From Oscillospiraceae bacterium (GTDB taxonomy: Bacteria > Bacillota > Clostridia > Oscillospirales > Oscillospiraceae): a stretch of DNA of 43,224 nt. Of this stretch, positions 37,703 to 42,254 are shown one piece after another (the first letter of the stretch is position 1; each line of letters starts with the position of its first letter). Under the pieces are notes generated by a model. That model was not told the origin of the DNA and did not search any database. It saw only the letters and a list, made by a program, of their open reading frames with translations. The position numbers and the translations under genes are program-made. The stretch is from contig CACWLG010000036.1 in assembly GCA_902761635.1 (NCBI GenBank), forward strand, positions 1 to 43,224, written 5' to 3'.

Positions 37703-38659
37703 TCAGCCGATCTTGAGACCCTGCTCGGTGTAGAACTTCGCGGCGCCGGCATGCCAGGGGATGGAAACGCCGGAGACTGCGGTGTTCAGATCGAGCTCGC
37801 TGCCCTTGACGTGGCCGGCGGTGATGTCGTCCTTGTAGTCAAAGAGGCCCTTGACGAAGGCGTAGATCACGTCCTCGGAGACCTTGTTGGAGGCAACGAT
37901 GGTGGCCATCACGGCGACGGCGGGGACATCGTCAGCCACGGGGCTGTAGGTGCCGCCGGGGATCACGCCGTAGTAGTAGAAACCGTAGTCGGCCTGGAGC
38001 TTGGCAGCGTGCTCATCGTCGATGGGCAGGAGGTTGAAGTCGAAGTTGGTGGCAAGCTCGGTCACAGCGGTGGTGGGGTAGCCGGCCACGACGAAGGCGG
38101 CGTCGATGGTGCCGTTCTTCAGGGAGTCGGCGGAGTCGGCAAAGCTCTGGTTGGAGACCTTGATGTCGTCGAAGCTCAGGCCGTAGGCGCCGAGGATCTG
38201 CTTGGCGTTGAACTCGGTGCCGCTGCCGGCGTCACCGACGGAGACGCGCTTGCCGGCGAGATCAGCGATGGAGGTGATGTCCTTCTTCGCCAGGATCTGC
38301 ACGTACTCGGGGTAGCAGGAGGCGACAGCGGAGAAGTCGGTGATGGGGGCGCCGCCGGCGAAGAGATCGGTGCCGGTGTAGGCGTAGTACATAACGTCAT
38401 TCTGCACGATGGCGATGTCAGCGTCGCCGGACTGCAGCATCTGGATATTGGCCTTGGAAGCGCCGGTGGACTCGACCTTGAGGTTCAGGGTGTCCTTGAG
38501 CTTCTCGTTGAGGACGTTGGCAATGACGCCGCTGAAGCCGTAGTAGGTGCCGGAGGTGCCGCCGGTGGCGTAGTTGAGCTTGGTGCCGGCCGCGAAGGCA
38601 GGGGCGCACAGAGCAAACACCAGGGTGAGGGCAAGCAGCGTGGCAATGACTTTTTTCAT
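37703..38659 (-). CDS. TAXI-family TRAP solute-binding protein, copy 1
   Basis: A 318-residue TAXI binding protein: signal peptide ending APAFA, then LNYATGGTSGTYYGFSGV (the family's opening motif), ASKANIQMLQSGDADIAIVQ, VSVGDAGSGTEFNAKQILGA and the C-terminal VSGVSIPWHAGAAKFY. It differs from the adjacent copy at only about 26 of 288 mature positions by hand count. This copy has a secretory signal with no obvious lipobox. GGAGG precedes ATG 38659. It heads the operon with DUF1850 and the fused permease and has its own promoter. Confidence 0.93.
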   Translation of the reverse strand: MKKVIATLLALTLVFALCAPAFAAGTKLNYATGGTSGTYYGFSGVIANVLNEKLKDTLNLKVESTGASKANIQMLQSGDADIAIVQNDVMYYAYTGTDLFAGGAPITDFSAVASCYPEYVQILAKKDITSIADLAGKRVSVGDAGSGTEFNAKQILGAYGLSFDDIKVSNQSFADSADSLKNGTIDAAFVVAGYPTTAVTELATNFDFNLLPIDDEHAAKLQADYGFYYYGVIPGGTYSPVADDVPAVAVMATIVASNKVSEDVIYAFVKGLFDYKDDITAGHVKGSELDLNTAVSGVSIPWHAGAAKFYTEQGLKIG

Positions 38660-38746
38660 GTTTGGTTCCTCCATATCATGATTTTCCGTCTCCCATGCGG
38701 GCGAGGGAAGGAATGGCGAAAGATGATTTACGCCGTTTCTGGCGTT

Positions 38747-38775
38747 ATACTACAACTAATAGTTGATCTTGGCAA
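38747..38775 (-). promoter_or_regulatory. Promoter with internal palindrome for TAXI copy 1
   Basis: Read on the minus strand, TTGCCA (38775-38770) and TAGTAT (38752-38747) are 17 bases apart. The spacer contains the palindrome CAACTAATAGTTG (38753-38765). The second TAXI gene has the same arrangement at 40000-40028, so the palindrome is a good candidate operator. Confidence 0.7.
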
Positions 38776-38917
38776 GAGGTTTTTTTGTTTTCTGCCGTTT
38801 TTACAATTTTGTTTCCCGCGCCAAATCATATTTTATGAATTTCAAATAAAGAAATGCCGCCGAAGACTGCGAAAATTCCCAGCATATAGAAACACCGCTG
38901 CTCCCCCGCCGGCAAAA

Positions 38918-38944
38918 AAAGAGGAGGGGCAAGCCCTCCTCTTT
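38918..38944 (-). terminator. Rho-independent terminator of TAXI copy 2
   Basis: On the minus strand AAAGAGGAGGG pairs with CCCTCCTCTTT around CTTGC and runs straight into more T residues. It separates copy 2 from the promoter of copy 1, so the two binding-protein genes are independent transcription units. Confidence 0.9.
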
Positions 38945-38960
38945 GGATTGCGCCGCAAGC

Positions 38961-39911
38961 TTACAGGACGCCCTTTTCCTTGTAGAACTTCTCGGCGCCG
39001 GCGTGCCAGGGGATGGAGACGCCGGAGACCGCGGTGTTCAGGTCGAGCTCGCTGCCCTTGACGTGGCCGGCGGTGATGTCGGCCTTGTAGTCAAAGAGGC
39101 CCTTGACGAAGGCATAGACCGCGTCCGCGGGGACCTTGTTGGACGCGACGATCGTGGCCATGACGGCGACGGCGGGCACATCCTCCGCCACGGGGCTGTA
39201 GGTGCCGCCGGGGATCATGCCGTAGTAGTAGAAGCCGTAGTCAGCCTGGAGCTTCGCGGCATGCTCGGCGTCGATGGACAGGAGGTTAAAGTCAAAGTTC
39301 GTGGCAAGCTCGGTCACGGCGGTGGTGGGGTAGCCCGCCACGACGAAGGCCGCGTCGATGGTGCCGTTTTTCAGCGCGTCGGCAGAGTCGGCAAAGCTCT
39401 GGTTGGAGACCTTGATGTCGTCAAAGCTCAGGTTGTAGGCGCCGAGGATCTGCTTGGCGTTGAACTCCGTGCCGCTGCCCGCGTCACCGACGGAGACGTT
39501 CTTGCCGGAAAGCTGCTCGATGGAGCTGATGTCCTTCTTCGCCAGGATCTGCACGTACTCGGGGTAGCAGGAGGCGACGGCGGAGAAGCCGGTGATGGGG
39601 GCGCCGCCCGCGAAGAGGTCCGTACCGGTGTAGGCGTAGTACATGACGTCGTTCTGCACGATGGCGATGTCGGCATCGCCGGAGGCGAGCATCTGGATGT
39701 TGGCCTTGGACGCGCCGGTGGACTCGACCTTCAGGTTCAGCGTGCCCTTGAGCTTCTCATTGAGGACGTTGGCAATGACGCCGCTGAAGCCGTAGTAGGT
39801 GCCGGACGTGCCGCCGGTGGCATACTTGAGCTCGGCGGTGCCGGTCTTTCCGCAGGCGCACAGCGCGAATACCATCACGGCCGCGAGCAGGAATGCGATG
39901 CATTTTTTCAT
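38961..39911 (-). CDS. TAXI-family TRAP solute-binding protein, copy 2 (lipoprotein)
   Basis: 316 residues, about 91% identical to copy 1 in the mature part (hand estimate). It has the same LKYATGGTSGTYYGFSGV opening and VSGVSIPWHAGAEKFY ending. The signal peptide differs: VFALCACGKTG includes LCAC, a plausible lipobox, so this copy may be membrane-anchored while copy 1 is free. Residue differences cluster in no obvious ligand motif. It is a monocistronic unit with its own promoter and terminator, adjacent to the divergent LysR gene. A recent tandem duplication that carried the promoter along explains the layout. Confidence 0.92.
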   Translation of the reverse strand: MKKCIAFLLAAVMVFALCACGKTGTAELKYATGGTSGTYYGFSGVIANVLNEKLKGTLNLKVESTGASKANIQMLASGDADIAIVQNDVMYYAYTGTDLFAGGAPITGFSAVASCYPEYVQILAKKDISSIEQLSGKNVSVGDAGSGTEFNAKQILGAYNLSFDDIKVSNQSFADSADALKNGTIDAAFVVAGYPTTAVTELATNFDFNLLSIDAEHAAKLQADYGFYYYGMIPGGTYSPVAEDVPAVAVMATIVASNKVPADAVYAFVKGLFDYKADITAGHVKGSELDLNTAVSGVSIPWHAGAEKFYKEKGVL

Positions 39912-40134: not shown

Positions 40135-41106
40135 ATGGACTTTACACTCTTAAAAAGCTTTATTGCGGTGGCCGAGGAGAAGAGCTTTTCCTCCGCCGCC
40201 AAAAATCTTTTCATCTCCCAGCAGACGCTCTCCAAGCAGGTGGCAAAGCTGGAGGAGGATCTGGGCACCACGCTCTTCATCCGCTCAAGGCCCCTCGGCC
40301 TCACGCCGGACGGCGGGCGGCTGCTGCCCATTGCCAAGGAGATCCTGCAGCTCAAGCAGCAGTTTGAGGAGAGCTCCAGCCGCAGCTTCAGCGGCGCGCA
40401 CTACATCCACCTGGGCATCGAGCACACCATCGCCCGCGCCATCCTGCCGCAGATCCTGCCGCGCTTTCTGAAGGACCACCCGGACACCTACGTCAAGCTC
40501 AGCGAGGAGACGCCGGACGTGATGCAGAAGTCCATTTCCTACGAGGGGGTGGACCTGGTCATCGGCTCTCTCGGGAGCGTGCCGGACAAGTTCAAGGCGG
40601 TGCCGCTGTGCCGGAAGGAGCACGTGCTGGTCGTGCCGAAGGAGATCCTGGCGGCCCTCGCCGGGGAAAAGGCCGGGGAGCTTGCGGAGAGGTTCTCCCG
40701 CAGCGCGGACCTGAGCTTTTTCGAGCAGGCCCCCTTCATCAAGATCCCGCGCCAGTCCTCCGGCGGGCGCGCCCTGGCAAGCTACCTCAAGTATTACGAC
40801 ATCAGCCCCCGCTTCGTCTGCGAGCTGACCAACATTGAAAACGCCTTCCAGCTTGCAAACGCGGGCGTCGGCGTGTTCATCTATGCCAGGGTCTTCTGGG
40901 ACATGCTCTCGCGCGAGCTGCAGGAGGACTATCTGCGCAACATCTGCATCTTCCCCCTGCCCTACCTGCCGGATATTGAGGACGTGTGCGCCTACTATAA
41001 CCGCGACGCCGGCATCAGCGGCATGACGCAGGAGCTGTTCCAGGCGGTGAAGGACTTCTTCGAGGAGTACAAGGCGCGGGAGGATTCGCCTGCATTCCTC
41101 TCATAA
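40135..41106 (+). CDS. LysR-family regulator, divergent from the TAXI genes
   Basis: A 323-residue LysR-type regulator: HTH region FIAVAEEKSFSSAAKNLFIS (residues 7-26) followed by QQTLSKQVAKLEEDLGTTLF, and an effector-binding domain from about residue 88. It starts 223 bases from the divergent TAXI gene and is the obvious candidate for binding the CAAC...GTTG sites in both TAXI promoters. Its ligand would then be the transported acid; inference. CGGAGG precedes the ATG. Confidence 0.9.
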   Translation: MDFTLLKSFIAVAEEKSFSSAAKNLFISQQTLSKQVAKLEEDLGTTLFIRSRPLGLTPDGGRLLPIAKEILQLKQQFEESSSRSFSGAHYIHLGIEHTIARAILPQILPRFLKDHPDTYVKLSEETPDVMQKSISYEGVDLVIGSLGSVPDKFKAVPLCRKEHVLVVPKEILAALAGEKAGELAERFSRSADLSFFEQAPFIKIPRQSSGGRALASYLKYYDISPRFVCELTNIENAFQLANAGVGVFIYARVFWDMLSRELQEDYLRNICIFPLPYLPDIEDVCAYYNRDAGISGMTQELFQAVKDFFEEYKAREDSPAFLS

Positions 41107-41155: not shown

Positions 41156-41183
41156 TTGACAAGCGGGCAAAAACCGCTATAAT
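41156..41183 (+). promoter_or_regulatory. Sigma-A promoter of the ribozyme-nagB transcript
   Basis: TTGACA at 41156-41161 and TATAAT at 41178-41183 with a 16-base spacer. The start site would fall about 40 bases before the ribozyme cleavage site, giving a 5' leader that contains the whole ribozyme. Confidence 0.88.
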
Positions 41184-41232
41184 ATCCCCGTATCAAAACA
41201 GACTCCCCACGGAGGTTGAAGGGAGCTCTGTT

Positions 41233-41361
41233 AGCGCCGGGACCGTGATTGGTTGACGAGGTTGGCGGTGATCGAAAGATTCGGCGGATGCCGCCACGGC
41301 TCACAGTGGGTCGTAAGGGCAAAGGGAAAAAGCAGAATCAAGACTGTAACAGAGCTTTGCC
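41233..41361 (+). ncRNA. glmS-class self-cleaving ribozyme (GlcN6P-responsive) in the nagB leader
   Basis: The sequence matches the glmS ribozyme core position by position. The cleavage site is A41233 | G41234 in TTAGCGCC. The core GTTGACGAGG (41252-41261) contains the catalytic G. P2 pairs GGCGG (41264-41268) with CCGCC (41291-41295), enclosing ATCGAAAGATTCGGCGGATG. A hairpin CGGCTC/GGGTCG is followed by the invariant GTAAGG, and P4 pairs GGCAAAG (41318-41324) with CTTTGCC (41355-41361). glmS ribozymes cleave their own mRNA when glucosamine-6-phosphate binds. The gene 37 bases downstream is nagB, not the usual glmS. Confidence 0.93.
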
Positions 41362-41398
41362 TGACACTGAATAACAATACAACACAAGGAGACTCACC

Positions 41399-42190
41399 AT
41401 GAGAGTTGTTATTCAGGACAATTACGATAAAATGTGCAAATGGGCGGCTGACTATATCGCCGCAAAGATCCGCGCCCACAAGCAGGCGCGCCCCTTCGTG
41501 CTGGGCCTGCCCACCGGCTCCTCCCCCATCGGCGTATATAAAGAACTTGTGCGGATGAATCAGGCCGGGGAGCTGAGCTTCAAAAATATCGTCACCTTCA
41601 ACATGGACGAGTATGTCGGCCTGCCCCACGAGCATGACCAGAGCTACTGGTACTTCATGCATGACAATCTCTTCGACCACCTCACGGACATGAAGCCGGA
41701 AAACATCAACATCCTCAACGGCATGGCCGAGGACCCGGAGGCCGAGTGCGCCCGCTACGAGGCGAAGATCGCCTCCTACGGCGGCATTGACCTCTTCATG
41801 GGCGGCATCGGCGTGGACGGGCATCTGGCCTTCAACGAGCCGTTTACCTCCCTCGCCTCCCGCACCGGGCTTCGCGATCTGACCACCGACACCATCCTGG
41901 TGAACTCCCGCTTCTTCGGCAACGACCCCTCGAAGGTGCCGACCCGGGCTCTCTCCGTCGGCATCGGCACCGTGACCGACGCCAGAGAGGTGCTCGTGCT
42001 CATCAGCGGGCACAACAAGGCCCGCGCCCTGGCCGCCACGGTCGAGGGCGGCGTGAGCCAGAAGTGGACCTGCAGCGCCCTGCAGCTTCACAACGCCGCT
42101 ATCATCGCCTGCGACGAGGCCGCCTGCGGTGAGCTCACGGTCGATACCTACAAGTACTTCCTGGATATCGAAAAGGGCGAGAGGCTGTAA
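41399..42190 (+). CDS. nagB: Glucosamine-6-phosphate deaminase/isomerase NagB under ribozyme control
   Basis: 263 residues, full length for NagB. Substrate and catalytic blocks are intact: VLGLPTGSSPIGVYKEL (phosphate loop), FNMDEYVGLPHEHDQSYWYF (the general-base Asp), GGIGVDGHLAFNEPFTSL (active-site Asp, His, Glu) and the C-terminal SALQLHNAAIIACDEAAC. It interconverts GlcN6P plus water and fructose-6-phosphate plus ammonia; the reaction is reversible. AAGGAG lies seven bases before the ATG. The leader holds a glmS-class ribozyme, so its message should fall when GlcN6P is plentiful, the opposite of what a purely catabolic deaminase would need. Confidence 0.95.
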   Translation: MRVVIQDNYDKMCKWAADYIAAKIRAHKQARPFVLGLPTGSSPIGVYKELVRMNQAGELSFKNIVTFNMDEYVGLPHEHDQSYWYFMHDNLFDHLTDMKPENINILNGMAEDPEAECARYEAKIASYGGIDLFMGGIGVDGHLAFNEPFTSLASRTGLRDLTTDTILVNSRFFGNDPSKVPTRALSVGIGTVTDAREVLVLISGHNKARALAATVEGGVSQKWTCSALQLHNAAIIACDEAACGELTVDTYKYFLDIEKGERL

Positions 42191-42209: not shown

Positions 42210-42254
42210 CCCCGGCGAAAACGCGCACCGAAGGGCGCCGCGTCTTCGCCGGGG
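42210..42254 (+). terminator. Terminator of the CCCCGGCGAA family after nagB
   Basis: CCCCGGCGAA (42210-42219) pairs with TTCGCCGGGG (42245-42254), with further GC pairing inside (ACGCG/CGCGT). Third copy of the stem-loop family in this window. Confidence 0.8.

Follow-up and report, generated by a model that had tools for sequence, protein, structure and literature searches.

The locus described here raises the question of why a ribozyme of the glmS class should stand before nagB. Standard teaching makes GlmS the indispensable first step of bacterial amino-sugar synthesis and casts NagB in the opposite, catabolic role, ordinary bacterial NagB being catabolic, and a ribozyme-nagB pairing runs counter to this scheme. 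A switch that shuts NagB down through its would-be substrate would predict the direction of the enzyme from regulation alone. The pairing lies in a 43,224-nt stretch of DNA, analysed at full length and referred to as the window, from an Oscillospiraceae genome assembly of 3.59 Mb (85.8% complete, 4.7% contaminated). In an Rfam covariance scan of the whole window, the glmS ribozyme (RF00234) was the sole family reaching its gathering threshold, matching over the full model (positions 1-167) at 41222-41371 on the + strand with 70.9 bits (E 1.9e-14), compared with a gathering cut-off of 37 bits. This significant match bore out the original prediction of a glmS-class leader at 41233-41361, and a complete nagB, as also predicted, follows from an ATG at 41399. 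The features of the region are:

41156..41183, + strand: putative sigma-70-type promoter, TTGACA-16-TATAAT, matching the consensus at all 12 positions; the ribozyme match lies 38 nt downstream
41222..41371, + strand: glmS-class ribozyme (RF00234), 70.9 bits in the covariance scan (cut-off 37, E 1.9e-14) and 58 bits with model R1 (see below)
41233..41234, + strand: predicted self-cleavage site between A41233 and G41234 (A/GCGCC), AGCGCC being present in 46 of 46 nagB-linked and 18 of 18 other ribozymes
41386..41391, + strand: ribosome-binding site AAGGAG, by sequence reading
41399..42190, + strand: nagB, class B NagB-family protein of 263 aa, proposed ammonia-dependent GlcN6P synthase (TIGR00502 371.3 bits, cut-off 236.9)
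42210..42254, + strand: stem-loop 3' of nagB, possible terminator (inverted repeat, 16-nt arms, 94% complementary; fold z -2.46)

Model R1, built solely from the family's 17 glmS-linked ribozymes and independent of nagB-linked copies, found the same place in the window (E 2e-12), and the covariance model returned exactly one match from the source genome's own contigs, that of the window. By sequence reading, the leader carries AGCGCC with the predicted cleavage site, GTTGACGAGG, ATCGA, TTCGGCGG and the P3/P4 region. Because its folding energy was not significant (z -1.62, 11 of 200 shuffles being equally good), this measure was not used, and the case for the ribozyme was built on the covariance model and on covariation. 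Chance or weak resemblance to a glmS ribozyme was ruled out by the RF00234 match, the R1 match and the covariation, and by every sequence and structure feature that could be tested the window RNA belongs to the glmS ribozyme class. The match ends 27 nt 5' of the nagB start codon; the place before glmS, typical of the class without defining it, was not found in the window, where nagB comes next. Upstream lies a gene for a LysR-type regulator (40135-41106) and downstream pckA, cut by the window end, such that nagB seems to stand alone, outside any gene run. The terminator scan did not call the stem-loop at 42210-42254, the tail of which is poor in T. On the - strand at 37703-39911, the translations read as two tandem, very similar genes resembling TRAP-type substrate-binding proteins, with a large membrane protein gene adjoining.

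A survey of related genomes established that the pairing recurs. Within 200 genomes of the family, the covariance model matched a ribozyme in 27 (26 above the cut-off), followed by glmS in 17, nagB in nine and glmM in one. In this single glmM case, G036 (C3:3983-7050, L214), the ribozyme (48 bits with Rfam, 107 bits with R1) precedes glmM, then an acetyltransferase and then a distant NagB, with glmS on another contig. Order-wide, ribozymes were found in 99 of 394 genomes (100 places), and at least four precede nagB by coordinates among the NagB matches listed (source genome, G131, G181 and G540), with G540, of another family, showing the order ribozyme-nagB-acetyltransferase-glmM. An alignment of 15 NagB proteins served as query for a further search, from which the best 80 of 583 loci, all named, were used. 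A ruminant host is named for 30 of these best 80, and many others carry RUG or RUI labels, which denote rumen sets. L121 is Ruminococcaceae bacterium P7, a cultured organism with two glmS copies and the order ribozyme-nagB-acetyltransferase-glmM. An Rfam ribozyme lies upstream of nagB or a nagB operon in 38 of the best 80 of 583, directly 5' of nagB in 30 and before an acetyltransferase and/or glmM leading to nagB in eight; a 39th named locus, L124, was seen with R1, its genome scoring 36.4 bits, just below the Rfam cut-off. With one genome in both sets (G178, which is G225/L128), the nine family and 38 named genomes (from the best 80 of 583) make 46 distinct ribozyme-nagB genomes, and a contaminant single case is ruled out by their shared arrangement. 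At L091 (2827-2926) and L103 (2854-2953), the place immediately 5' of nagB, which the ribozyme takes at other loci, is occupied by a small SRP RNA gene. No report of a glmS ribozyme before nagB was found by title or opening abstract in the open-access literature, a search whose range did not extend to the 2011 McCown survey and its 2012 successor. All but two of 463 glmS ribozymes in the survey by McCown and colleagues reportedly lay in glmS mRNAs, and a printed mention of the pairing, for example among those two exceptions, is possible.

R1 matched 47 of 88 sources, comprising the 46 distinct known genomes and L124. The motifs AGCGCC, ACGAG and TCGGCGG are present in all 46 nagB-linked copies and in the window, and the TCGA motif (ATCGA or GTCGA) in 45 of 46. 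Towards P3/P4 the motifs are more variable, with GGATG in 37 of 46 nagB-linked copies; the AC..AG motif occurs in 33 of 46, compared with 17 of 18 other ribozymes. Of the motifs in the original prediction, GTAAGG is present in the window but is not constant, a CGT[A/T]AG pattern occurring in 17 of 46 nagB-linked and 0 of 18 other copies. On the 47 copies, 88.6% of cells are paired and 25 of 38 pairs show double-sided changes, with 262 doubly changed cells compared with 80 in shuffles, a count that leans towards the structure derived from glmS-linked copies, to which the alignment was fitted. The covariation score was 0.330 against 0.123 in shuffles, with 0 of 500 shuffles as high and slid structures reaching at most 0.085. 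The weakest copy, that of G131, scores 33.6 bits with Rfam (below the cut-off) and 25.6 bits with R1 (E 3e-4) and keeps the core motifs, and the tail of the nagB-linked copies reaches only 25-36 bits with R1. The nagB-linked ribozyme RNA is under selection.

By TIGR00502 score, the NagB proteins of the family fall into class B (15 genes scoring above 350 bits, the window's among them) and class A (99 genes, 208-317 bits), class B being longer than class A. In a quick tree of 108 rows the split between the two classes is fully supported, and one 75-row branch (support 89) contains every one of the 47 ribozyme-linked rows (one genome twice). All 94 class B rows (one genome twice) keep the residues aligned with the catalytic Asp72, Asp141, His143 and Glu148 of E. 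coli, and in the alignment the window NagB keeps D70, D140, H142 and E147, with Gly157 and Arg159 replacing E. coli Arg158 and Lys160. The GlcNAc6P site of the E. coli enzyme is described as Tyr121, Asp141, Glu148, Ser151, Arg158, Lys160 and Tyr254 (PMC4281351). This E. coli-type allosteric site was not found in class B, where all 94 rows carry Thr at 151, Gly at 158 and Arg at 160 and at least 93 of them keep the remaining four residues, an invariance partly built in because the rows were picked by similarity; of the 14 class A rows, all have His at 158 and 13 have Val at 160. In the family sample, a listed nagA lies within 1.5 kb of 0 of 15 class B genes, one of which (G090) has a contig ending just past nagB, compared with 43 of 99 class A genes (Fisher p 9e-4). 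Elsewhere in the source genome (G000:C4:3250-6080, L269), and likewise in G174 (C26, L270), an acetyltransferase gene and glmM occur together with another NagB-like gene, from which the catalytic Asp and the customary phosphate-loop motif are absent. G004 carries an additional, weak NagB-like gene without the catalytic His; these are possibly inactive relatives retained for another role.

Contiguity was defined as same strand with gaps of at most 300 bp. By this measure, 31 of the 39 named ribozyme loci have glmM and/or a GlmU-like acetyltransferase gene contiguous with nagB, 27 of them both, compared with 18 of 41 named loci without a ribozyme (all from the best 80 of 583); the other eight ribozyme loci have neither gene contiguous, some of them at contig ends. 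Two glmM neighbours of class B nagB tested with TIGR01455 scored 532 and 545 bits, and two neighbouring acetyltransferases, left-handed helix proteins, best matched the C-terminal part of archaeal-type GlmU at 140-142 bits, below that model's whole-protein cut-off. The orders seen include ribozyme-nagB-acetyltransferase-glmM, ribozyme-acetyltransferase-nagB-glmM, ribozyme-glmM-nagB and others, some with glmS at hand: ribozyme-acetyltransferase-nagB-glmM-glmS (G231), ribozyme-glmM-nagB-glmS (G237), glmS-ribozyme-acetyltransferase-nagB-glmM (G202) and, in G203, glmS 1.2 kb beyond glmM with another ORF in between. The linked genes would take fructose-6-phosphate to GlcNAc-1-phosphate, which is difficult to reconcile with catabolism. 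At L206 (2059-3015; G231), a CofD-family gene (PF01933, 281 bits), presumably a YvcK/GlmR relative, lies 5' of the ribozyme operon. Class A nagB-glmM-acetyltransferase runs also exist, in 7 of 11 genomes without GlmS and nagA (L278, L279, L280, L282, L283, L284 and L286) and in 5 of 9 nagA-less genomes with GlmS; no ribozyme was found with such runs when the model was applied to the 11 GlmS- and nagA-less genomes.

GlmS fell below its cut-off in 44 of the 200 family genomes; long pieces are present in two of them (G110 and G115), and the other 42 have no long match. NagB above 200 bits was present in 33 of these 42 compared with 77 of the 158 others (p 8e-4, in a family sample of incomplete and related MAGs). 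Class B NagB was weakly associated with lack of GlmS (6 of 42 compared with 9 of 158, p 0.09), and no strong statistical link between the two was found. Nine of the 42, such as G002 (96% complete), also lack NagB above 200 bits, and may either make GlcN6P by another route or be incompletely assembled. In G131 (100% complete) and G004 (94%, same genus), the ribozyme-linked nagB encodes the only NagB above the cut-off, and searches of both genomes yielded no GlmS candidate and no nagA match; class B NagB is here the only recognised route to GlcN6P. GlmS is missing in three of the nine family ribozyme-nagB genomes, one of them 65% complete, while among the 38 named ribozyme genomes (best 80 of 583), for which completeness is not given, GlmS was above the cut-off in 30, present as sub-cut-off pieces in two (G212 and G234) and undetected in six. 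The sole ribozyme match is the nagB one in 37 of these 38; G235 alone has a second, before glmS. Scores for nagA exceeded the cut-off in 15 of the 38 named, four of the nine family and 19 of the 46 distinct ribozyme-nagB genomes (named ones from the best 80 of 583), and two more, G201 and G207 (204-207 bits), come close to it, so that some of these organisms could still catabolise GlcNAc. In the source genome, nagA (295 bits) lies away from nagB on another contig (C2:65025-66023).

We consider it quite probable, reading enzyme direction and cleavage from sequence, that the ribozyme provides product feedback on a biosynthetic, ammonia-using NagB, a confidence slightly lowered because the G131 ribozyme is weak. 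The leader ribozyme would sense GlcN6P, and plentiful GlcN6P would lead to cleavage and probable loss of the nagB message, so that NagB falls. The source genome encodes an MG423-family nuclease (606 bits), presumably of the RNase J type that destroys cleaved glmS mRNA. Class B NagB would aminate fructose-6-phosphate with ammonia to give GlcN6P, from which GlmM and the GlmU-like acetyltransferase would lead towards UDP-GlcNAc for peptidoglycan; in some glmS-less relatives, class B NagB would be the only recognised route to GlcN6P. A ribozyme on nagB would then be ordinary product feedback, because class B NagB is taken to run in the aminating direction. Rumen ammonia ranges from several to tens of mM. 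The NagB reaction is reversible, with a reported Km for ammonium of about 31 mM for the E. coli enzyme and 3.7 mM for the bovine enzyme with activator (PMC11593775). The backward-running, feedback-controlled NagB that had been predicted gains support on the side of comparative genomics, through the glmM/acetyltransferase runs, the lack of adjoining nagA in the family sample, the glmS- and nagA-less relatives and the placing of the ribozyme on nagB where glmS coexists. Its description as "the cell's GlcN6P synthase" fails for the source genome, where both a full glmS (788 bits) and nagA are present.

NagB could instead be catabolic if cleavage switched nagB on, through a stabilised message or an exposed ribosome-binding site, such that surplus GlcN6P is burnt. 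Membership of a mostly catabolic family, nagA in the source genome and a ribozyme ending close before the start codon are in keeping with this, but the core motifs are the same as those of glmS-linked ribozymes. The core is described as holding the active site (PMC11602151, PMC6171935), and in B. subtilis cleavage lowers the glmS message, since the A40 core mutation raised glmS mRNA more than 50-fold (PMC6171935). The glmM gene runs, the 0 of 15 class B genes beside nagA and the nagA scores below cut-off in 27 of 46 ribozyme-nagB genomes (named ones from the best 80 of 583) also stand against it, leaving cleavage that activates the message, the alternative offered originally, with little support and improbable. 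We give similarly low credence to the glmS-less organisms being amino-sugar auxotrophs in which NagB merely drains a surplus. The precedent is Akkermansia muciniphila, like the glmS-less relatives here a gut bacterium with NagB and no GlmS; it differs in that its NagB only deaminated, making no GlcN6P at physiological conditions, and GlcNAc or GalNAc is needed (PMC5902328), so absence of GlmS by itself is not proof of a synthetic NagB. A drain, however, should rise with GlcN6P rather than fall, and G131 and G004, neither of which has a nagA match, seem to lack the usual GlcNAc-to-GlcN6P route.

That the ribozyme is an inactive relic of a replacement of glmS by nagB would fit its presence outside its usual place, the variable motifs on the P3/P4 side (GGATG) and the copies scoring low with R1; against this, cleavage and core motifs persist in 46 of 46 copies over diverged sequences and covariation is strong, making a relic very unlikely. 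Least likely of all, class B NagB might act on another sugar phosphate, with control by GlcN6P being indirect: three E. coli allosteric-site residues differ in all 94 class B rows, yet the protein reaches 371 bits with an equivalog model (TIGR00502), its catalytic residues are intact and many of its neighbours are GlcN6P-pathway enzymes.

Feedback on a biosynthetic NagB has partial counterparts in known systems. The RNA resembles the B. subtilis type of glmS ribozyme (RF00234) in covariance model, cleavage site, core motifs and stems, and in its proposed ligand and OFF logic, and differs in its target, here nagB or a nagB-glmM-acetyltransferase run, and in that cleavage is predicted only. Catabolic nagAB operons, with class A NagB of the same family, share the protein superfamily and reaction, whereas class B is longer, forms a separate branch and has none of its 15 family genes next to nagA. 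Giardia lamblia lacks GlcN6P synthase and forms GlcN6P from ammonia with its NagB, on which GlcNAc6P has no activating effect (PMC4281351). The enzyme proposed here would likewise make GlcN6P from ammonia and departs from the E. coli GlcNAc6P site; the Giardia case differs in being eukaryotic, in feeding the cyst wall, in the residues changed and in that the available portion of its description mentions no ribozyme (PMC4281351).

More broadly, it seems somewhat favoured that many gut Clostridia, above all ruminant ones, make their first cell-wall amino sugar from free ammonia through a dedicated NagB class, a GDH-like counterpart to GlmS, the glmS ribozyme having moved to the nagB and glmM operon as a feedback valve and GlmS having been replaced outright in some species. 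If true, these genomes would be misannotated where nagB is taken for a catabolic gene. The switch opens the question of NagB-driven cell-wall synthesis in ammonia-rich guts to direct testing. Such bacteria might escape drugs against GlmS, while drugs against the glmS ribozyme might hit them via another gene.

In the source genome, a search for glmS and for other glmS ribozymes found a full glmS (C8:53383-55200) and no further ribozyme; neither the Rfam model nor R1 detected one at this glmS, and a glmS elsewhere with its own ribozyme is thereby rejected for this genome. Next to this glmS, at a distance of 217 bp, is a type III glutamine synthetase (GSIII; PF12437, 262 bits). Contamination is an unlikely source of this linkage because G174, of the same genus and cleaner (95% complete, 1% contaminated), has a like run of glutamine synthetase, GSIII, glmS, guaA and an ammonium transporter with a P-II part. 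A glutamine synthetase or ammonium transporter lies within 2 kb of glmS in 12 of 30 ribozyme-nagB genomes (source genome, G174 and 28 named genomes) compared with 0 of 17 ribozyme-glmS genomes (p 0.002), a manual count that is suggestive only, as different lineages are compared, p ignores kinship, several glmS contigs are short and G235, whose glmS has its own ribozyme, is among the 12. The count left out the glmS surroundings of G205, G212, G217, G234, G060, G199 and G181, which have glmS or pieces of it, and in two of the 17 controls (G189 and G128) GSIII lies 3.5-3.8 kb from glmS. A division of labour by nitrogen supply would fit the source genome better than NagB as sole synthase: NagB would probably be the cheap route at high ammonia, with glutamine-dependent GlmS for low ammonia. 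On the specific assignment of GlmS to nitrogen-poor and NagB to ammonia-rich conditions, suggested by gene position, we are evenly divided. The two-route logic is that of GDH and GS-GOGAT in ammonia assimilation, in which a cheap, low-affinity ammonia route stands beside a glutamine route; the product here would be GlcN6P, and the analogy is drawn from gene neighbours. The glmS genes near a type III glutamine synthetase include those associated with L210, L211, L217, L218, L220, L226, L233 and L241, and for L211, L233 and L241 an ammonium transporter is also near glmS.
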